NCBI GenBank assembly: GCA_937907245.1
Contig: CALCUM010000003.1
Coordinates: forward strand, 372,001-436,000
Origin: an uncultured Rhodobiaceae bacterium
Lineage (GTDB): Bacteria > Pseudomonadota > Alphaproteobacteria > RS24
Length of the DNA stretch: 64,000 bases
Direction of reading: 5' to 3'
Below are positions 8,219 through 23,725 of this stretch, one piece after another (position 1 is the first letter of the stretch; every line of letters starts with the position of its first letter). The notes under the pieces were generated by a model that saw nothing but the letters and a program-made list of their open reading frames with translations, was not told the origin of the DNA and ran no database searches. Made by a program: the position numbers and the translations under genes.

Positions 8219-9256
8219 CTATAATTGTGCCGCCGCCAGAGATTGACGATATTTTTCTGCATCCCAATCCAATAGGTCAGCCACATCTGAATCTTTCAAA
8301 GGCACGGGCCTGCTATCGACGGGCAGCCGAACGACCACATCTGCGTAACACAGCAATTGCTCGCGGGCGGCTTGCGTGGCCGTGCCGGACACCAGCACCC
8401 CTTCCCCTTCAACCAAAATAAAGTCTGGCGCATTTTCGATAAGCGTTGGGGCCTCGCCCCCTAAGCGTTCCAAAGAACAACAGACCGCACGCGGGCCCAA
8501 AAACACCGCGTGATCTGGATATAAAACCCATGCTGTTTTCGCCATCTCCAGCGCTGCCGCATCCCTAGCCAAAACATCTAGGTTTTCATCTTTTGACCAA
8601 GCATAGTGCCCCGCCAGAGCTTCTGGCAGGCCAGCTGCACCAGAACTTGCCGAGGCTTTTAGCTGCACGGGTTGGCGAACACACGCGATAATCTGCGCTA
8701 GTTTTTTGTCCAATTCGCTTACCGTTTCGGCGGCCACCACAATTCCATGATTGGCCAGCAACACCAAATCCATGGCCCCCAAATCATCAGCCGCCGCGCT
8801 CACCGCTTGAGCCAAGTCAGCTCCCGGTTTGAAATAATCGACAAGACACCAAGCGATATCGCTAGGTAGAGCTGCCGCAAATGCAGCTCGCGGATTATGG
8901 CCTACCAATAAAGCCAAAGGGTCAATGGCATGCACATGGAGAACATATTTTTGCGGCATGAGCGCATGCAATAGGGTTTCAATAGAGGGGCGCAAATCAC
9001 CGCCATCCGCCGCCTTGGGTTGGGTCGAAAAATCACCTTTTTGCAGACGTTCCCGAACGGGCTGCAAATCTACGGCCACAAAAATGGGCTTTTCTTCCGC
9101 TTCCGATAAACGCGTGCCAGACGCTTTTACCCAGAGGGTATCCGCTTGTTTCCAAGAAGCATTGCCGCCGCCGCCTTGCACCAACAAACGATCTCGGCCA
9201 ACGCGGGCGCAAAGGGCAAGGAGGTCATCGCCGTGAGACGTGGGCGCGATGCTCAT
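8219..9256 (-). CDS. Class II aldolase/adducin-domain protein
   Basis: Protein of 345 residues; roughly 1-210 form a class II (zinc) aldolase/epimerase fold, as in L-fuculose- and L-ribulose-phosphate enzymes. Seen: GGGGNASWK (phosphate-loop-like GN[AT]S), VKASGTRL, the HVHAID pair and NHG histidine expected to bind metal, with a further domain of about 130 residues (HYAWSKDENLDV onward) as in two-part RhaD-like aldolases. It is the last gene of the seven-gene operon and its ATG overlaps the HAD gene stop by 4 nt. In that setting it may make or cleave a phosphorylated keto-sugar intermediate, which is inference. The substrate is unknown. Confidence 0.75.
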   Translation of the reverse strand: MSIAPTSHGDDLLALCARVGRDRLLVQGGGGNASWKQADTLWVKASGTRLSEAEEKPIFVAVDLQPVRERLQKGDFSTQPKAADGGDLRPSIETLLHALMPQKYVLHVHAIDPLALLVGHNPRAAFAAALPSDIAWCLVDYFKPGADLAQAVSAAADDLGAMDLVLLANHGIVVAAETVSELDKKLAQIIACVRQPVQLKASASSGAAGLPEALAGHYAWSKDENLDVLARDAAALEMAKTAWVLYPDHAVFLGPRAVCCSLERLGGEAPTLIENAPDFILVEGEGVLVSGTATQAAREQLLCYADVVVRLPVDSRPVPLKDSDVADLLDWDAEKYRQSLAAAQL

Positions 9257-10002
9257 TTCGCAACTTCCAATTTAGTTAATGTTTCCGTCAATTTCGAGAA
9301 ATCGTCAAAAGTGACATCAACATTCGCAAGGCTTGCCTTTGGGGGGCGTGACCCATTGGTTTTCAAAAAGCTAACGCACCCCAAAGCCTGCTTGCTACCA
9401 GCCATATCGCACTCCAAATCGTCTCCAATCATCCATATTTTGCTGGGCTCACAATTAACTTTGGCCACAGCGGCATGAAAGATTTCAGGCTTGGGTTTTT
9501 CGGCGCCAATTTGTTCACTCGTAATGACAAAATCAAAGGCCTCTTCAATACCGAGATAGATTAGTTTTTGAAACTGAATTTGCGCTGTCAAATTGGTAAT
9601 GAGAACGACAGGAATGCTACGCAAACGCGCTTCCTCGAAAAAATCGGTGACGCCTTCAAACAAATAGCTGTGTCGCAAAAAACGACGCCAATAGGTTTGC
9701 TCATAATCAAGCGCCTTTAGCACAGCCGCTCCCAAACCAATGGACTCGAGCAGCTCTTGGAAATACAGCAGTCGACTGCGCGCAGAAGGCGCATCGCCTA
9801 AGCGGGCTTTCACGCTTTTGCGAGCTGCATCAAACAAGATTTTAAATTGCTCGGGCTGAACATCAAAGTCGGTCTTCAACTTATCGCCGACGGCAGCTAA
9901 TCCAGCTGTATGACCTGGGTCATATGGGTAAAGCGTATTGTCTAGATCCACAAAAATCGCAGACGGCGCCTCGCTTAACACAACTTTAGATAGAATTTTC
10001 AT
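9253..10002 (-). CDS. HAD-superfamily hydrolase (probable sugar-phosphate phosphatase)
   Basis: Cytoplasmic HAD-IA phosphatase-like protein of 249 residues. The four motifs are visible: DLDNTLYP (nucleophile Asp, general-acid Asp replaced by Asn in the DxDxT pattern as in some pyrimidine-nucleotidase-like members), LITNLT, the lysine in GAEKPKPEIF, and IGDDLECDM. A helical cap lies between motifs one and two. AGGAAG sits just before the ATG, which overlaps the end of the kinase-fusion gene by 17 nt. It likely removes phosphate from an intermediate of the operon's pathway; that role is inferred only from position. Confidence 0.78.
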   Translation of the reverse strand: MKILSKVVLSEAPSAIFVDLDNTLYPYDPGHTAGLAAVGDKLKTDFDVQPEQFKILFDAARKSVKARLGDAPSARSRLLYFQELLESIGLGAAVLKALDYEQTYWRRFLRHSYLFEGVTDFFEEARLRSIPVVLITNLTAQIQFQKLIYLGIEEAFDFVITSEQIGAEKPKPEIFHAAVAKVNCEPSKIWMIGDDLECDMAGSKQALGCVSFLKTNGSRPPKASLANVDVTFDDFSKLTETLTKLEVAK

Positions 10003-12049
10003 AACTTCCTCGTGCCGCCATTTGGCTAGCGATAACCATTAAGGTAACCAATTGCATAACGCCCGTCATGCCCGATTTCCATTGCGGCGCTTCATCAAAA
10101 AACTCCATCAAATTAGGGCACACAAGATCGACGGCCATGGCAATATCGGTTGCGCGAATATCACCCGATATCGTCATTTCCACATTTCCATTGGCGCGGT
10201 CTCGTTTGGTGCTGACCTCGCACATCAAAAGGCCGGTCAGAATTCGGGCCAAAAGTTCTTCATTATTACCAGAAGCAAATTTCGCCTTCAGCCTAAGATT
10301 GACATCGTCGAGAGAGCCGCTCTCCGGCAAAGCCTGTTCAGGCTGCAAGGAGAACACAATATCGGCTTGATCTTCTTGGGGCGCGACAAAGTTCTCAAAA
10401 TCTGCACGCCGCGACTCCAAGGCCTCCAGAGTGCTTTCCAATGACTTTCCGCGCAACACAGTATCCCGGTGAATTTTGTACCCACGGCGCAAACCCTCAT
10501 CAATGGCGAGGTATATCTTCAGATCAAACAAAGCCGATTGCTTGGCCGAGAAAAAAGCATGCAGGCCTGATGCGATAACGAAATCGCGCGAAGCCAGTTT
10601 TTCGGGACGACTAAGTTTGCCCGTCGCATGATCGTAATGGCGTTTCAAGATAGTCTTACCCGCCCGCAGTTTTTCAATATCGCCGGTAAAGCCCTCGAGG
10701 TTATTGGCCGCCGGGTTAAGATGCGTCATCACCTGCCACATGGGTTTTTGACGGTCATAGCGATGGTAATCATCGCCCGACAAATTAGTAGCCGAATGGC
10801 TGCCAAAGACATCGATAATCGCTTCCGCCAGAGTGTCTTTACCAGCCCCAGAATCGCCCGCGATGGCCAGCATGAACGGTCGTTGGCTAACCCGGAAAAA
10901 CGCATTTTGAGAAATCGACTCGCGCCACATCCGAAGCCCAATAATTACCCCAAGGGTGACCAATAAAGTGACGAGCCCCGATTGCACGAAAGGCGCGGAG
11001 AGAAAGTTTAAATTTACTGCGGCAAACAGATCAACTTCGGACCCCGACCCCAAAACCGCTGGCTTGTGAACCAAGGCGTTTAGCGTAAACAAAATGGCAT
11101 AGAGATAGCCAAGGCGTATCGCCACCAATCCACTTTGTGTTTGATAAAGAACCAAGAACGGTAGGCTCCAGACAAACCAACCAGCACTTCCGGGGGTCAA
11201 TAAAGCCAGCGCCAAAAACGTGACGCCGAGGAAAGAAACAAACATATTGAAACTCAGCCTACGAGCGCGCCAAATCCAATATAAGAACAAAACAAAGCCG
11301 AGCGGCAATAATAGAATAGTCGCCCCGCCAAAGCTCACCGCATAATTGGCCAGAGTGCCCATCTCAGAATTGCCGCTAACAAAACCGAGAGCCACATCCG
11401 AAGCCAAAAAAGGAATGCTGAGGGCGCCAAAACCAGCGGTAAAAGCCAGCGCAATTTTTACACTATGTTTGCGGACGGGCGGCTTATTGATAAAATAAAG
11501 AGCCACAATCGGTAGCGCAACCATCATGCTGAGTTTGGCAGATACCGCAAAGGCCAGAAACAAACCGGCCCAGACCCAGCGCCGATTGTGAAGGCACAAA
11601 ATAGCGGCCATGAGGAACCCAACGGCGACAATATCATTATATCCATAAACATAGGTCGCCACGAGCGTTATCGGCGACAGCCAAAACAAGGTCAGGACAC
11701 GCCGAGCCTTCTCATCGACCAGGCGGGCAAGAACCAGTAAAAGGGCAAATTCCCAAATAAACAGGGTTGCAAAATATAGCGTTAAGCCTTCAATCGGCAA
11801 GATTGCCTGCAAAGCGAAACCTGGCAAAAACACTAGCCACATAGCAAAGCCATAAGGAAAGGCCGCCGCCTGGCCACCAAGGTTTGCCCAGACAAGCCAG
11901 GGGTCAAACAACGACTGGCCTACCGTCGCCTCAAAAAACGGGACATATAAATCGCTGGCCGCCACCGGCACAAAGGCCGCTAGCAAAAGGCCGCGCAAGG
12001 CGCACCCTATCCAAAAGCTAGGCCTGGAGAGAACAGCTGAGATTGTCAT
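9986..12049 (-). CDS. GT-C membrane glycosyltransferase fused to a phosphoribulokinase/uridine-kinase-like domain
   Basis: A 687-residue two-part protein. Residues about 1-380 contain some 10-12 hydrophobic segments, with SDLYVPF and FDPWLVW near the first large loop and YGYNDIVAVG later, resembling GT87/PIG-M-like GT-C mannosyltransferases that use polyprenyl-phosphate sugars. Residues about 392-600 are a P-loop kinase: GDSGAGKDT at 398-406, DDYHRYDR at 426-433, HLNPAANN, IASGLHAF and the PQEDQADIV stretch are typical of phosphoribulokinase/uridine kinase. About 85 more residues follow. The start MTISAV is chosen because its ATG overlaps the upstream stop by 4 nt. The fusion suggests that a kinase step is tied to the membrane transfer step; substrates are unknown. 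Confidence 0.82.
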   Translation of the reverse strand: MTISAVLSRPSFWIGCALRGLLLAAFVPVAASDLYVPFFEATVGQSLFDPWLVWANLGGQAAAFPYGFAMWLVFLPGFALQAILPIEGLTLYFATLFIWEFALLLVLARLVDEKARRVLTLFWLSPITLVATYVYGYNDIVAVGFLMAAILCLHNRRWVWAGLFLAFAVSAKLSMMVALPIVALYFINKPPVRKHSVKIALAFTAGFGALSIPFLASDVALGFVSGNSEMGTLANYAVSFGGATILLLPLGFVLFLYWIWRARRLSFNMFVSFLGVTFLALALLTPGSAGWFVWSLPFLVLYQTQSGLVAIRLGYLYAILFTLNALVHKPAVLGSGSEVDLFAAVNLNFLSAPFVQSGLVTLLVTLGVIIGLRMWRESISQNAFFRVSQRPFMLAIAGDSGAGKDTLAEAIIDVFGSHSATNLSGDDYHRYDRQKPMWQVMTHLNPAANNLEGFTGDIEKLRAGKTILKRHYDHATGKLSRPEKLASRDFVIASGLHAFFSAKQSALFDLKIYLAIDEGLRRGYKIHRDTVLRGKSLESTLEALESRRADFENFVAPQEDQADIVFSLQPEQALPESGSLDDVNLRLKAKFASGNNEELLARILTGLLMCEVSTKRDRANGNVEMTISGDIRATDIAMAVDLVCPNLMEFFDEAPQWKSGMTGVMQLVTLMVIASQMAARGSYENSI

Positions 12050-12645
12050 TGGATAATCCCCTCCCATAAATCTGCGCGCTTGGTGCAAATAGCGTCGGGT
12101 TGAACGTTCAAACTCAAAATTTGCGCGCCCATATCAGCGATGGCAACATCCGCATCGCGCCCTTGCAGCTCCGGGGAAACCAAACACAAGTTAAACCCTG
12201 CCGCTTTCAACCGATCGTAATCATCGTCTTTGAACGGCAGTTTGGTAAAACAATCGACCCAAACCCAATCGACTTTGCCAGCTAAAGCCAAGACTGTATC
12301 AAGGCTCTCAAATTCAGAGTATCGCACGGCGGAGCGGCCACGCGCGGCTTTCGCGTAGCGCACTAAAAACGGAAAAGACTGGTCTAGAAAAAAGTAATCT
12401 TCGCAGCCTATATCCGCCATGCGCTGAATGAGAAAAGGCTCTAAGCCCTCTTCTTTTACATTTAAAATCAGGGTCTTATGATGAAATTCCTTGAGCCATT
12501 CATCGAATAATTCCCCACGCTCAAACGGGTCATGATGCAAAACAAGGTCGGATCCATAGCTGCGGATATCAATCTCAACACCAAAGTGATCTGGCGTCGC
12601 TTTCAGCTGCTCAAGGGTATTGATGCGATGAGAAATAAACTGCAT
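12046..12645 (-). CDS. Short GDPD-like phosphodiesterase-family protein
   Basis: Cytoplasmic protein of 199 residues resembling a compact glycerophosphodiester phosphodiesterase TIM barrel (the family is usually about 240-300 residues). The catalytic-type residues are conserved: SHR at the N-terminus (the His-Arg of AHRG), GVEIDIR (Glu and Asp metal ligands) and LVLHHDPF (His-Asp). Later strand motifs LILNVKEEG and WVWVDCF also fit. There is no signal peptide. Its ATG overlaps the GT2 stop (TAATG) and its stop overlaps the next ATG. It may cleave or bind a phosphodiester such as a nucleotide-linked or glycerophospho intermediate, but its true substrate cannot be read from the sequence. Confidence 0.65.
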   Translation of the reverse strand: MQFISHRINTLEQLKATPDHFGVEIDIRSYGSDLVLHHDPFERGELFDEWLKEFHHKTLILNVKEEGLEPFLIQRMADIGCEDYFFLDQSFPFLVRYAKAARGRSAVRYSEFESLDTVLALAGKVDWVWVDCFTKLPFKDDDYDRLKAAGFNLCLVSPELQGRDADVAIADMGAQILSLNVQPDAICTKRADLWEGIIQ

Positions 12646-13367
12646 TACAGGTACCTTTTTTTCAATTCTAGACTGAAATCAATGGTGCGACGGATAAATT
12701 TATACTTGCTGCGCCAATCAACATTCCAATGCGAGGTGCCGAATTGGCGCTCGCCGAAATATACAGGAAAGCGGTGAATTTTTAACCCTGCTTTCTTGGC
12801 CATATAATAGGCATATAAGTCCAACGAGAAATCATGCGGCGGATCTTCCCATGTTTCGAAAAAAGCCCGCGAGAAAACCGTTGGCTGGGCATTAATATCC
12901 CAAAACACGCGCCGTAATAGCAGCATTTCGAAAAAGCTCATACCAATGGTAAACATGACATCCACCAGCGGACGACCAAAGCGGCGCCCTTTCACAAAGG
13001 CCGCCAATGGCTCGCCCTCGGCTGGTATGGTTTTAGAATGGGTTTTAAAATAGTCTAGAGCCGCGTTCATATCAGCCGGGTCGGTTTGTAGATCCGCATG
13101 CGTCCAGCCCAAAATCTCACCCTTTGCTGCGTTTAAGCCGGCCAGAATACCAAAGCCATAGCCCTGGTTTTCCGCCACCCGAATGGCGCGTATCTGCGGG
13201 TCTGTTTTTAACAAAGCGGCCAGAACCTCCGGCGTCGTATCGGTCGATCCATTGTCAACCAGCACCACTTCTACAGTCTCGGGCAGCGCTGCCGCACGAC
13301 ACGCCGCCACCAGCGTCTCCAGACCAGCGGCCTCATTGTAACAGGGGATAATCAGTGAAGCGTGCAT
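12645..13367 (-). CDS. GT2 polyprenyl-phosphate glycosyltransferase (Dpm1/GtrB-like)
   Basis: Inverting GT-A enzyme of 240 residues, expected to move a sugar from a nucleotide donor to a polyprenyl phosphate. Seen: SLIIPCYNEAAGL at the start, VDNGSTD, the DxD equivalent HADLQTDP, and the Dpm1-type C-terminal block FWDINAQPTVFSR followed by DFSLDLYAYYMA. There are no C-terminal membrane helices, so it is of the soluble Dpm1 type. The start MHASLI is one base after the gtrA stop; an earlier in-frame ATG would overlap gtrA. Adjacent to a GtrA-type flippase and a GT-C enzyme, it fits a three-part load, flip and transfer cassette. Confidence 0.85.
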   Translation of the reverse strand: MHASLIIPCYNEAAGLETLVAACRAAALPETVEVVLVDNGSTDTTPEVLAALLKTDPQIRAIRVAENQGYGFGILAGLNAAKGEILGWTHADLQTDPADMNAALDYFKTHSKTIPAEGEPLAAFVKGRRFGRPLVDVMFTIGMSFFEMLLLRRVFWDINAQPTVFSRAFFETWEDPPHDFSLDLYAYYMAKKAGLKIHRFPVYFGERQFGTSHWNVDWRSKYKFIRRTIDFSLELKKRYL

Positions 13368-13368
13368 A

Positions 13369-13776
13369 TCAATGCGCCTTAAATACAAAAAATTTCATAC
13401 CGAGATAATTGAACACGGCCGAAAAACCAGTCGCGATAACAAACGCCATTGTGAACCCATAGGCCAAATCTGCCAATAGACCGAGCGATACGTTATTCAG
13501 CGCAATATTGCCAAATAACGAAAGCGCATAGACAAGGCAAAATCGCCACAGGGAATAACGATTGTCGGCCTCATGCTCGAAAGTGAATTTTTGATTGGCC
13601 CAATAGGCAAACACTGCGCCACTTAAAAACCCTAAGGCTTTGGCCGCATCCACGGCCCCTTGCGCGAAAGATTGCAGGCCATAGTAAACGCCATAGTCAA
13701 TCAAAACAGCCGAAATCCCCACGCCTAGAAACGTCAATCGCTCTCGGTTGAGCAGGGTTTTAAGGGCCGTGAGCAT
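13369..13776 (-). CDS. GtrA-family membrane protein (putative polyprenyl-phosphate-sugar flippase)
   Basis: Small inner-membrane protein of 135 residues with four hydrophobic segments, the normal size and topology of GtrA/PF04138. The family features are GVGISAVLIDYGVYYGL in helix one, FAYWANQKFTFEH after helix two (the conserved N-[RK]-x-[FW]-[TS]-F element), and NYLGMKFFVF near the end. GtrA members are thought to translocate undecaprenyl-phosphate-linked sugars to the periplasm. The ATG directly follows the stop of the double nucleotidyltransferase (TAGATG), indicating coupled translation. Confidence 0.85.
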   Translation of the reverse strand: MLTALKTLLNRERLTFLGVGISAVLIDYGVYYGLQSFAQGAVDAAKALGFLSGAVFAYWANQKFTFEHEADNRYSLWRFCLVYALSLFGNIALNNVSLGLLADLAYGFTMAFVIATGFSAVFNYLGMKFFVFKAH

Positions 13777-15390
13777 CTACTTAGCAGGCTCGAAATCGAG
13801 GAAAGGATGGGACGCCCATTTCGAAAAGCAACTTTGCCAATATTCGAAAGTCTTTAAATCATTGGGCGTGCCCCAAGAAATGTAATGCTGATTTTCAAAC
13901 AGCTCGCATACCAGCCCCAATGTCAGGGCATCATTGACGCAACTATCGAGATAATATTCACCGTTCACCCGCCCCTCGCGGGCCAGCAGGCTCTCGACGC
14001 AGCGGCGAAATAAAGCGCCCGAACGGAAAGTAATCGTACCGGTAATAATCGGGTCGTGTTGCGGGTTATCCAAAGGCTGCTTGACCGAGACATTAACAAT
14101 CTGTTCGTCGCGCACATCTATCCAGCCAAACATTTTAGGATGGCGTACCGCATTGGTCACGCCGCGCGCACCCCATACCAACAGCTCACCGCCTTGCGCT
14201 TGCCATTGCGCAAATTTTTCCAAATCATAAATCGCGCCATTATCGCAGGCTCCAAAGGTTACCGTGCCGTCAAAGTCTGGCCGCTCGCGCTCCAGCGCTT
14301 CCAAACCCGCCAAACAGGTCAGCGCTTGCCCATCGGTCAGCGCAGGCAGAATTTCGAGAATGGCTTGCGGAAACCGGGTTTTCAAAGTCTGCAAAATATC
14401 GTCAAGGCCCGGCATATCCCCGCGCAAGACAAATACATGATGCGCGGCTGGCGGCAGGTCATAAACCGCCGAGAGAACCATCGGCTGATGCTTGACCTCA
14501 ATCAGAGGCTTGATGGTGGTATAGCCCGCATCGGCAAAGCGTTGACCCAGCCCCGCCATTGGAATGATAACAGCATGATTATCCTCCGCTTCGGGGGCTT
14601 CGGGGGCTTCGTGCGTCGGGGTAGGTTTGGTGAAATGATGAAACACATCCGACCACCCGTTATATTCCGCCACATCTTCTGGCGTACCCCATTGCATGAA
14701 GTGTTCCAGCTCATAAACACGAATGTCGGCTCCTGCTTCCAACATCGGCTTATAGGCGAGGCTGACATAAAACTCGCCATTGATGGACAAGTCTTGTGCC
14801 ACACAATCTGCCAAGGCCCGTTTCATCACCGCGCCAGATTTAAAATAATAAGTGCCGCTAGAGGCGAACTCTTGCATGCGATTATCGGTAAATGGTTCTT
14901 TCTCTTTGATATCGAGCATCCGCATGTTTTCTTCGCGCATATAAGCATAATTGGTCGAGCCTAATGTATGCGGATGAAACCCACGATAGGCTGGCACGGC
15001 GCCATCACAATCGGTTTCTTGAACTCTTTTTTTGAAGGCCGAATAATCCCAATAGCAGGTAAAATCGCAATAATTTACGATTGTGGGCTCGCTATCTGAC
15101 ACTAAGTCAGCCACCTGCTGGACCGCATGAATAGGGCCTAATTTATGCGGCGCGATACCAACAATGCGAGCGGTTGGGCATAAATTTTCCAAAATATCTC
15201 GCATATGAAAATCAGGCTCATCCAAATGGTCTTGATTGCAGATGAATATGAAATCAGTCTCGCCGGGAAACATATCTACGACATGGGCGATAATCGGCTT
15301 GCCTTCGATGTCGATAAGCGGCTTGGGCACTTGATACCCAACGCGACGAAACCGCTCTCCAAACCCAGACATTGGAATAATGACTTGCAT
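13777..15390 (-). CDS. Tandem double nucleotidyltransferase
   Basis: 537-residue protein made of two sugar-phosphate nucleotidyltransferase-like domains in series. Domain 1 (about 1-245) has IIPMSGFGERF, PKPLIDIEGKP, VNYCDF (metal Asp109), GSTNYAYM, NGEFYVS and QWGTPEDVAEY. Domain 2 (about 272-515) repeats the pattern with IIPMAGLGQRF, KPLIEV, GACDNG, GEYYLDS and SWGTPNDLKTF. A proline/glutamate-rich linker at about 254-270 joins them. Both domains keep the G-x-G-x-R loop, so both may be active. The MQVIIPM start gives the proper family N-terminus. It is the first gene of the seven-gene operon and probably makes its activated precursor(s); the nucleotide is unknown. Confidence 0.8.
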   Translation of the reverse strand: MQVIIPMSGFGERFRRVGYQVPKPLIDIEGKPIIAHVVDMFPGETDFIFICNQDHLDEPDFHMRDILENLCPTARIVGIAPHKLGPIHAVQQVADLVSDSEPTIVNYCDFTCYWDYSAFKKRVQETDCDGAVPAYRGFHPHTLGSTNYAYMREENMRMLDIKEKEPFTDNRMQEFASSGTYYFKSGAVMKRALADCVAQDLSINGEFYVSLAYKPMLEAGADIRVYELEHFMQWGTPEDVAEYNGWSDVFHHFTKPTPTHEAPEAPEAEDNHAVIIPMAGLGQRFADAGYTTIKPLIEVKHQPMVLSAVYDLPPAAHHVFVLRGDMPGLDDILQTLKTRFPQAILEILPALTDGQALTCLAGLEALERERPDFDGTVTFGACDNGAIYDLEKFAQWQAQGGELLVWGARGVTNAVRHPKMFGWIDVRDEQIVNVSVKQPLDNPQHDPIITGTITFRSGALFRRCVESLLAREGRVNGEYYLDSCVNDALTLGLVCELFENQHYISWGTPNDLKTFEYWQSCFSKWASHPFLDFEPAK

Positions 15391-15541
15391 AAAACACCCT
15401 TTTTCGCAAAGCGACACGTAGTTCTTGATACGTCAATTTGAGGTTTTTTGCTAGCCCAGGCCTTGCCAAAGCCGGCCACGAGTCGGCCAGGCATGCCGGT
15501 GGTGTTATCAGCCGTCAGGCAGGCAGGATCTCATTTCAGCC

Positions 15542-21668: not shown

Positions 21669-22577
21669 TCATGAACGAGCCTGCCTAAATAGGGCTCGCA
21701 AGCGCGCCCAAATACGTTGCGCTAGCGAGCGATGACTGGCTTTAAAAAACGTCACAAAACCATCGCGCCCTATCGCCGACGCCGAGACCTCGATATTTTC
21801 TAGAGAAATCGGTGTGGCACTAACTTCCACATCGTAATTACTCGTACCAGCCGCATGGGTACCGCTGTCGTCATTGCCAATGTTATGAATAAGGCTGCGG
21901 CCCGGATATAGCGTTAGCTTGCCAGCCAAAAAAGCCGATGCATGCCAGCGTATCGCCCAGCTATTATTTTTTCCCGAGATTTGTTTCTTCAGCATTTTTA
22001 CATAAGGATAAGTGCCATCATAATCAAATGACTGAGTTAGACCGCGAGCTTGTAAGGCGTCCAGCAAGGCCTGCCCATCGGGATTAAAACCTTCCCAAGC
22101 GCGCGCCCAAGTCGCCCACCCCCAACAATCTGCGCCCTGTAGAAAAAACGCTTCGGGCAAAGCCGCCTTCACAGGGTAGCAATAGCCATGCACGCAAGCC
22201 ACTTTGTCTTCCTCGGCATATTTGTCGAGCGCTTCATTCATATAGCGCAGAAAATATTTTGAACTGACCATGTCGTCTTCCAGCACAATCACACGTTCGT
22301 GCTTTTGCACCGTCTGGCTGACCCCATCAATGATAGAGGCCGCCAGCCCATAATTGCGCTCCCGCTCAACAATCGAAATAGAGTTAAACCCGCTGATGGT
22401 TTTTACATAGGCGCGCACTTCGGCCACAGCTTCCGCATCTTTCTCATCACGAGCCCCATCGCAATAAACCGTCACGTCACTTTGCGCCGCCCCCTCATTG
22501 GCCAAAAGCGCCTCAAAGGTTTTGCGCGTATGCCAAAGGCGGTTGAACGTAAATACGATGATGGGAGCCAAATGCAT
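21669..22577 (-). CDS. GT-A glycosyltransferase, GNT-I/GT2-like
   Basis: Protein of 302 residues. Seen: APIIVFTFNRLWHTRKTFEA, ERNYGLAASIIDGV, the metal-binding VLEDDMVSSKYFLRYMN block and GADCWGWATWARAW, a pattern shared with GNT-I-like and related bacterial glycosyltransferases. A late LIHNIGNDDSGTH block is also typical. Cytoplasmic, probably acting on the lipid-linked repeat unit. The start overlaps the CapA-like gene stop (TGATG), so the two are coupled. Confidence 0.78.
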   Translation of the reverse strand: MHLAPIIVFTFNRLWHTRKTFEALLANEGAAQSDVTVYCDGARDEKDAEAVAEVRAYVKTISGFNSISIVERERNYGLAASIIDGVSQTVQKHERVIVLEDDMVSSKYFLRYMNEALDKYAEEDKVACVHGYCYPVKAALPEAFFLQGADCWGWATWARAWEGFNPDGQALLDALQARGLTQSFDYDGTYPYVKMLKKQISGKNNSWAIRWHASAFLAGKLTLYPGRSLIHNIGNDDSGTHAAGTSNYDVEVSATPISLENIEVSASAIGRDGFVTFFKASHRSLAQRIWARLRALFRQARS

Positions 22578-23725
22578 CAGTGTTTCCGCCCTGCGAGAGC
22601 TCGCTCCACGACCCAGCGATGCGTTTCAATACGAATATTATGCAGCAACAATAAGTGCCGCGAAGCCGTCCCTCTGCGCCCCCTCAAAAGCCAAGCGGCA
22701 AGGCTTTTGAACCAGCGCGGCAAAGATTTAAATCTCAAGCGAGGCCCCAGCCCCAGCATCGAGGCAGCATAATAGGTCTCGTAAATAGTTTCCCAAGAGC
22801 TTGCACAAATATCATCCACCGCTTTGGCGTAGGCTTGCTCGTCTTTAAGTAAATCATCACGTTCGCTTTGCCTGCCAGCAGCATGGTCAGACAAATCCAA
22901 GTCCACTTCATTACCAGATACGACCAAGGGGATAAGACTGCATTTCAGCTCGTCATCGCTTAAGTCGACGTCCAGCATAAGGCCATGACCCGTATCCTTT
23001 TGAGCGAGCATCACATCCATGTAAAAATTACCCAGACTATAGACGATGGGTTTTCCACGATATATCTCATGCCCCTGGGCGACATGGGGGTGATGGCCAA
23101 TAATCAGATCCGCCCCTAAATCAATCAGTTCACGATAACAGCGCCGCCATTCCGGCAATGGAAACTCGGCCATTTCGAGCCCACCATGCACTTGAACAAT
23201 AACTAAATCTGCCAGCTCGCTAGCTTCTTGAACGCTCTGACGTGCCTTGGGATGATCCATCCAAGCAAAGCCACCACCGCTTTCATTGGCTTCCTGCAGC
23301 ACCCCGAATTGCGCTTCGGCAAAACTACAAAAGGCAATCTTTTGCTCGCCTATTGTTGCGTAATACGGCGCATAGGCCGCGTCAAAATTTTCTCCCGCGC
23401 CAAAGTGGACGATGCCGAGTTGCGAGAGTGAGGCCATGGTTTGGGTTAACCCCGCTTTGCCATAATCCATAATATGATTATTGGCCAAGGCGGCATGGGT
23501 GCATCCTAGATGCTTCAGGGTTTCACTGGCCTGCATAGTTTGTGCGATAGAGGGGCCAGCTTTTGGAGCGGGAGCGGGAGCTGGAGCCTCCGTCATGGCA
23601 ACCACAGGCCCTTCGAAATTAACCCCAATGACATCCGCCGCGCGCAATCTTTCCTGCAACCGCGAAGACAGAACGGGCTGTCTCGGCTTAGAGACGCAAT
23701 AGTCACCAAAAAATACCATCCGCAT
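22577..23725 (-). CDS. CapA-family protein (PGA_cap metallophosphatase-like)
   Basis: 382-residue member of the CapA/PgsA-like family, related to calcineurin-type phosphatases. Seen: VFFGDYCVS, GVNFEGPV, ALANNHIMDYGKAGLTQT, VQVHGGLE and IIGHHPHVAQGHEIYRGKPIVYSLGNF, matching the family metal-site motifs. An Ala-Pro run (APAPAPAP) near residues 48-55 lies in a loop. There is no signal peptide or transmembrane anchor, unlike Gram-positive CapA. In surface-glycan clusters such proteins are linked to polymer modification, but the reaction is not established. The stop of the asparagine-synthetase-like gene precedes it by 2 nt. Confidence 0.8.
   Translation of the reverse strand: MRMVFFGDYCVSKPRQPVLSSRLQERLRAADVIGVNFEGPVVAMTEAPAPAPAPKAGPSIAQTMQASETLKHLGCTHAALANNHIMDYGKAGLTQTMASLSQLGIVHFGAGENFDAAYAPYYATIGEQKIAFCSFAEAQFGVLQEANESGGGFAWMDHPKARQSVQEASELADLVIVQVHGGLEMAEFPLPEWRRCYRELIDLGADLIIGHHPHVAQGHEIYRGKPIVYSLGNFYMDVMLAQKDTGHGLMLDVDLSDDELKCSLIPLVVSGNEVDLDLSDHAAGRQSERDDLLKDEQAYAKAVDDICASSWETIYETYYAASMLGLGPRLRFKSLPRWFKSLAAWLLRGRRGTASRHLLLLHNIRIETHRWVVERALAGRKH

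Follow-up and report, generated by a model that had tools for sequence, protein, structure and literature searches.

The stretch of DNA analysed here (the window, 64,000 nucleotides) comes from an uncultured Rhodobiaceae bacterium and covers positions 372,001 to 436,000 of the forward strand of contig CALCUM010000003.1 (assembly GCA_937907245.1). Its minus strand carries a gene in which a GT-C glycosyltransferase membrane domain is continued in frame by a phosphoribulokinase (PRK)-type domain, hereafter called the fusion. The frame opens with an ATG at 12049 and its stop codon ends at 9986. It holds 687 stop-free codons, a run expected by chance with a probability of about 1e-13 as calculated from base composition, and many stops interrupt the plus strand over the same interval (9986-12049). 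An in-frame TTG at 12088, 13 codons before the ATG, is another possible start and would give a protein of 700 amino acids (aa). GC content by codon position is similar in the GT-C and the kinase halves. Both ends are shared with neighbouring genes, in the manner of a compact operon: at the ATG there are 4 bases in common with the end of the upstream gene, and at the stop 17 bases in common with the start of the HAD phosphatase gene that follows. In Pfam, residues 394-573 match the PRK family (PF00485; E 2e-34, 119.6 bits for a cut-off of 22), and the motifs GDSGAGKDT, DDYHRYDR and GLHAF are all found. The fusion is a genuine single protein. A reading made from the sequence alone (the sequence-only reading) had described one uninterrupted 687-residue frame joining a GT-C transferase to a P-loop kinase without naming a strand; this description holds, on the minus strand.

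An AlphaFold2 model of the protein was built from 40 aligned fusions (mean predicted local distance difference test score (pLDDT) 92, predicted template modelling score (pTM) 0.90); residue conservation is given below for these 40 proteins. Compared with known structures, residues 1-381 of the model form a complete GT-C transferase fold: the matches span 334-360 residues and include GPI mannosyltransferase I (Z 25.5 over 351 residues), ALG3 (Z 25.4) and ALG6 (Z 24.7). Sequence matches to the same kind of enzyme were found with Pfam (ALG3, E about 1.6e-7 to 4e-7; GT87, E 3e-3) and with a GPI-MT1 profile (1.5e-5). D139 is invariant and E229 near-invariant in this half, which is probably an active transferase.

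The remainder of the model (residues 382-682) matches PRKs over their whole length, with Z 29.4 to a cyanobacteria-specific PRK and Z 28.7 to the archaeal PRK 5b3f (283-284 residues), and includes the PRK C-terminal domain. The NCBIfam model PRK07429 gives 200 bits (E 5.6e-59), below that model's cut-off of 236, and uridine kinase models give 76 bits. A PRK-type fold and ancestry are therefore as good as certain. In the PRK of Methanospirillum hungatei, ribulose-5-phosphate (Ru5P) is bound by H55, R59, Y98, H100 and K151, and ATP by R154 (PMC5241800); the catalytic pair of plant PRK is Asp58/His106 (PMC9978339). These site residues map with identical spacing to H429, R433, Y472, H474, K525, R528 and D426 of the fusion, all invariant in 40/40 proteins, as are the Walker-A Lys and Asp529. 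Mean pairwise identity among fusions is 48% in the kinase core versus 33% in the GT-C half.

Loop charges were counted along the membrane half. Lys and Arg are abundant at the N-terminus and in loops 108-115, 153-160, 187-197, 256-267, 305-309 and 372-391, whereas acidic residues cluster in loops 31-67, 134-140, 216-246 and 329-352, on the side opposite to the kinase. Because basic residues gather in the kinase-side loops and acidic ones in the opposite loops, the kinase is predicted to be cytoplasmic and the GT-C active site periplasmic, provided that the short helix 68-81 stays out of the membrane. The sequence-only reading had placed the two halves in the same way, and the predicted topology agrees with it. 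With this arrangement the protein could couple reactions on both sides of the membrane, as that reading had supposed.

Table 1. The fusion gene, its two halves and the neighbouring genes of its operon (window positions)
Feature	Position	Strand	Remarks
GT-C–phosphoribulokinase fusion, 687 aa	9986..12049	-	alternative TTG start at 12088
GT-C glycosyltransferase half, residues 1-385 (ALG3/GT87/GPI-mannosyltransferase-I-like); large periplasmic loops 31-67, 216-246	10895..12049	-	Pfam, profile and structure matches
PRK-type kinase half, residues 386-687, PRK C-terminal domain included	9989..10894	-	Pfam, NCBIfam and structure matches
Class II aldolase, rhamnulose-/fuculose-1-phosphate aldolase type, extra C-terminal region	8219..9256	-	E93, H107, H109, H170 invariant
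HAD-IA phosphatase, nearest curated model ribulose-1,5-bisphosphate 5-phosphatase	9253..10002	-	NF053830; 17-bp overlap with fusion
Minimal GDPD-fold TIM barrel	12046..12645	-	H6, E24, D26, H38, N62, K64 invariant; Z 16.9 to a GDPD
GT2 transferase (dolichyl-phosphate-mannose-synthase-like), putative polyprenyl-phosphate sugar synthase	12645..13388	-	Pfam Glycos_transf_2 1.5e-24
GtrA/DPMS-TM family membrane protein, putative flippase	13369..13776	-	Pfam PF04138 3.6e-18
Tandem nucleotidyltransferase, two NTP_transferase domains	13777..15417	-	K27/D113; K298/D387; likely ATG start near 15390

Read along the minus strand, the genes follow the order nucleotidyltransferase, GtrA, GT2, GDPD-like, fusion, HAD and aldolase, and their ends overlap or abut. 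This grouping recurs elsewhere. It was counted at the 49 loci with at least 6.5 kb of flank on each side, where the nucleotidyltransferase accompanies the fusion 46 times, the aldolase 44, the HAD 42, the GT2 41, the GDPD-like protein 39 and GtrA 20 times. All five partners other than GtrA lie within 9 kb at 31 loci, and the HAD gene next to the fusion is on the same strand with a median gap of -3 bp. The window operon encodes GT2, a GtrA flippase candidate and GT-C together, that is, the gene set of a three-component system. Around it are genes for RmlA, RmlB, Gmd (GDP-mannose dehydratase), a WecA-like transferase, an O-antigen-ligase-like protein and a Wzx-like flippase; the window is a surface-polysaccharide locus. 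A PGA_cap (CapA-like capsule synthesis) protein is encoded in the same locus at 22577-23725 (minus strand).

Among the soluble partners, the HAD protein is best matched by the curated model of ribulose-1,5-bisphosphate (RuBP) 5-phosphatase, NF053830 (162.6 bits, E 1.2e-47), with a 65-bit lead over the next model (97 bits), and 21/21 members of its family match NF053830 at E<=1e-10. The invariant Glu and His residues of the aldolase are presumably those of the L-fuculose-1-phosphate aldolase active site. A HAD and a FucA encoded side by side in haloarchaea take RuBP to ribulose-1-phosphate and on to dihydroxyacetone phosphate (DHAP) and glycolaldehyde (PMC9700705). A PRK-type kinase, a RuBP-phosphatase-like HAD and a ketose-1-phosphate aldolase therefore make a coherent set around a pentulose bisphosphate. 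No RuBisCO was found in the bacterium's own genome.

Both halves of the tandem nucleotidyltransferase keep the conserved Lys and a metal-type Asp. At two other loci (L072, 13627-16071; L098, 39-1640) the tandem protein is replaced by two separate genes, which suggests that the two halves are distinct enzymes. The GDPD-like protein (12046-12645) matches no Pfam family. Its model (pLDDT 96) gave the Z of 16.9 to a GDPD; both His and the E-x-D pair E24/D26 are invariant, and the third metal-ligand position is Asn62. With 38-61% identity between phyla, it ranks near the top of the cassette in conservation.

An alignment of seven fusions served as query for the main scan, which covered 84,980 genomes and returned 80 loci, of which about 77 are fusions. 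They occur in alpha-, beta- and gamma-proteobacteria, Lachnospiraceae (Bacillota), Bdellovibrionota, Acidobacteriota, Chloroflexota, Thermodesulfobacteriota (Geobacter) and one candidate phylum. The same fusion is thus found in the same surface-sugar gene set across at least seven phyla. At 70 loci both halves lie in one open reading frame (ORF) of at least 620 aa. The scan was seeded with kinase patterns and is biased toward fusions; a profile of the GT-C half only, run on 398 genomes of the phylum, is less biased but gave only five hits, in five genomes, each within an ORF of 698-724 codons. An artefact of split genes or a hidden stop is ruled out by the 70 one-piece loci together with the GT-C-only search yielding fused ORFs alone. 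The sequence-only reading had named homologues split into two genes by a hidden stop, or loss of the kinase residues across the family, as observations that would speak against a true fusion. Neither is what we see: no homologue with the two parts in separate genes turned up, and the core kinase residues are retained, though one active-site Glu is uniformly missing. Broken copies were found only in Regiella, Polynucleobacter necessarius, one metagenome-assembled genome (L065) and one Pseudomonas draft (L054). In Candidatus Regiella insecticola and P. necessarius (L047, L069), both with a broken fusion frame, the cassette is decaying.

Stand-alone kinases of similar score (L103-L105, actinobacteria) have unrelated surroundings and lack the cassette. 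Some alphaproteobacterial genomes (L002, L015-L020, L111) encode a stand-alone PRK-like protein of about 320 aa in which EGLLGY replaces EGLH. In a kinase tree, cyanobacterial PRK groups with the stand-alone PRK-like proteins, with support and apart from the fusions; a single origin of the fusion is recovered in 36% of bootstrap trees and is neither shown nor excluded. Phage records gave only partial uridine-kinase-like matches.

From these data we tentatively propose that the fusion works as a two-headed enzyme within a surface-glycan cassette of wide distribution, the kinase feeding a donor pathway that the GT-C half ends. In the cytoplasm, the kinase half would start or feed the pathway by adding a second phosphate to a pentulose-5-phosphate (Ru5P or a close relative), which yields the 1,5-bisphosphate. 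The HAD would take off the 5-phosphate, leaving a pentulose-1-phosphate that the class II aldolase would use or rebuild. After activation by the tandem nucleotidyltransferase, the product could be placed by GT2 on polyprenyl phosphate, and GtrA or another flippase would turn the polyprenyl-phosphate sugar over. The GT-C half, as last enzyme of the three-component system, would transfer the sugar to the surface glycan in the periplasm. The GDPD-like enzyme may have as its substrate an intermediate with a phosphodiester or a cyclic phosphate; that it shifts a phosphate through a 1,2-cyclic phosphate is pure speculation. The fusion would then hold together the opening and closing reactions of a single pathway, with no phosphorylation of lipid or nucleoside. 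For the separate steps, a phosphorylated sugar is the rather likely substrate of the kinase, and the HAD may well act on the kinase product, although we hold this a little less firmly.

The other roles that the sequence-only reading had offered for the kinase, recycling of a nucleoside or of polyprenyl phosphate, find little room here. A uridine/cytidine-kinase-like enzyme recycling nucleoside for sugar nucleotides would belong to the same Pfam family, PF00485, and public annotation does label homologues 'uridine kinase'; with the PRK match far above the uridine kinase models (200 vs 76 bits), the C-terminal domain of PRK in place and the Ru5P phosphate-binding residues invariant, this role is very unlikely. 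Still harder to credit is a lipid kinase making polyprenyl phosphate from polyprenol for the GT-C half. Proximity is what speaks for it, the GT-C partner using polyprenyl-phosphate sugars by family, but the active site retains residues for a small phosphorylated sugar, no lipid kinase is among the fold matches listed, and the HAD and aldolase of the cassette would be left unexplained. Because none of the 40 fusions departs from the Ru5P-binding residues or the catalytic Asp-His pair, we call this half PRK-type and not a uridine or polyprenol kinase. A third suggestion of the same reading, that the protein helps to make the precursor, fits best, to which the operon adds the RuBP-5-phosphatase-like HAD, the ketose-1-phosphate aldolase and the tandem nucleotidyltransferase.

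Several observations weigh against the proposed two-headed enzyme. In the kinase site, the Glu of the PRK motif EGLH (E131 in the class I PRK numbering of relatives) is absent in 40/40 fusions: its position holds S in 30, C in 5 and A, N, Q or I in the others, and is never acidic. The P-loop Ser/Thr is Asp in 29/40; Lachnospiraceae fusions retain the Ser/Thr yet lack the Glu. These altered sites are residues 494 and 405, respectively, of the fusion (about 10568-10837 in the window), and the changes may alter metal binding, substrate or activity. As the Glu is replaced throughout, we write 'PRK-type' rather than 'PRK', and kinase activity is a prediction. The 'complete P-loop kinase' of the sequence-only reading stands as far as the quoted motifs and the whole PRK fold go; it does not for this one PRK-conserved Glu. 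Elsewhere, in the GT-C half, the first loop on the periplasmic side has no invariant acidic residue (D49 is D in 25 and N in 12 of 40). The 162.6 bits of the HAD lie below the NF053830 equivalog cut-off of 330, for which reason it is labelled RuBP-5-phosphatase-'like' despite this being its best model, and sequence is a poor guide to the specificity of HAD enzymes. At 29/49 loci GtrA is absent or unrecognised. Finally, it would be strange to make a sugar donor by letting a kinase act and an aldolase then split the product into DHAP and glycolaldehyde.

The kinase-site changes could mean that this half is weak or dead and serves as a sugar-phosphate sensor or scaffold, gating the GT-C half or holding the soluble cassette enzymes at the membrane. 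Loss of the E131 equivalent and the frequent P-loop Asp point that way, and all ligand-binding residues are retained. The Walker-A Lys, Asp426, His474, Arg528 and Asp529 are nevertheless invariant, a kinase core better conserved than the GT-C half is unusual for a mere scaffold, and the P-loop Asp might substitute for the lost Glu at the metal site, a metal-acid swap. We consider this alternative unlikely. In a second alternative the sugar would be built from small pieces: the aldolase would join DHAP and an aldehyde to a ketose-1-phosphate, the kinase would act later on the product or on a derived polyol or ketose phosphate, and the HAD would trim before nucleotidylation. In favour of this route, the aldolase belongs to the rhamnulose/fuculose-1-phosphate type and has an intact site, and class II aldolases condense readily, as the haloarchaeal enzyme does (PMC9700705). 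However, a Ru5P start explains the HAD/PRK pairing at a 1,5-bisphosphate more simply and the cassette encodes no source of aldehyde, which makes this route improbable to about the same degree as the sensor.

Returning to the two-headed enzyme, its parts resemble known systems in different ways. The kinase half is like class II, archaeal and 'cyanobacteria-specific' PRKs (5b3f, 9qkn-9qkp, 6kev, 6hzk) in its full-length fold, Asp/His pair, Ru5P residues and C-terminal domain. It differs from them by the attached GT-C membrane half, the replaced EGLH Glu, the mostly Asp P-loop position, and its place in a glycan operon of a genome without RuBisCO. The GT-C half matches the whole fold of ALG3, ALG6, GPI mannosyltransferase I (PIG-M), PimE, ArnT and GT87 over 330-360 residues, with a weak sequence match to ALG3, GT87 and GPI-MT1, but has no invariant first-loop acid and carries a C-terminal cytoplasmic kinase. 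Three-component systems adding pentofuranoses, with GT136, are an established kind (PMC11127046). The cassette, known here from its genes, likewise combines a putative polyprenyl-phosphate sugar synthase, a flippase candidate and a GT-C in a polysaccharide locus. In those systems the donor comes from phosphoribosyl pyrophosphate (PRPP) via polyprenyl phosphoribose synthase and the flippase is of the MATE type (PMC11127046), whereas the cassette has a DPMS-like GT2, GtrA, the tandem nucleotidyltransferase and the PRK/HAD/aldolase set. With the haloarchaeal non-carboxylating pentose bisphosphate pathway (PMC9700705) it shares the joint occurrence of genes for a RuBP-phosphatase-type HAD and a class II aldolase of FucA type. 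That pathway is catabolic and obtains RuBP from nucleosides via ribose-1,5-bisphosphate isomerase; in the cassette a PRK would make the bisphosphate, for glycan synthesis.

A literature search, from which subscription papers were mostly and preprints wholly outside, found no description of the fusion or the cassette. It is possible, though doubtful, that the cassette encodes a surface-sugar pathway not described before. Its unusual product would probably be a pentulose or a pentulose-1-phosphate derivative, RuBP or a close relative would be an intermediate of synthesis in a setting other than carbon fixation or nucleoside breakdown, and the starting kinase and the ending transferase would share one membrane protein. 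Xylulofuranose O-antigen was considered as the product since Yersinia proxima carries the cassette; no supporting evidence was found, and this idea is speculation. If the proposal is true, PRK-type chemistry is not confined to RuBisCO pathways and has found a use in making surface glycans in gut Lachnospiraceae, Pseudomonas, Yersinia, Legionella relatives, and plant-associated and aquatic bacteria. Fusion genes labelled 'phosphoribulokinase' or 'uridine kinase' would then in many cases carry a misleading name, and a PRK match in a heterotroph would be no sign of autotrophy. The conserved cassette offers a concrete gene set for tracing a sugar and its donor pathway.

Within the same class, the full-length fusion is present in 3 other genomes among 385 (identity 28-37%), and 11 congeners carry no full-length copy. 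Since only a minority of related genomes have the full-length protein, the fusion was probably acquired by this lineage. Plasmids carry it as well, in Azospirillum brasilense, Hirschia baltica and two E. coli strains; among 5,426 E. coli genomes the cassette was seen on the plasmids of these two strains and on no chromosome. The two E. coli plasmids carry a 9-kb copy of the cassette that is 100% identical between them (L023, NZ_CP145712.1, 6000-15000). One of them comes from human stool (IncR replicon, with the cassette near a copy of IS26) and the other from a bullfrog.

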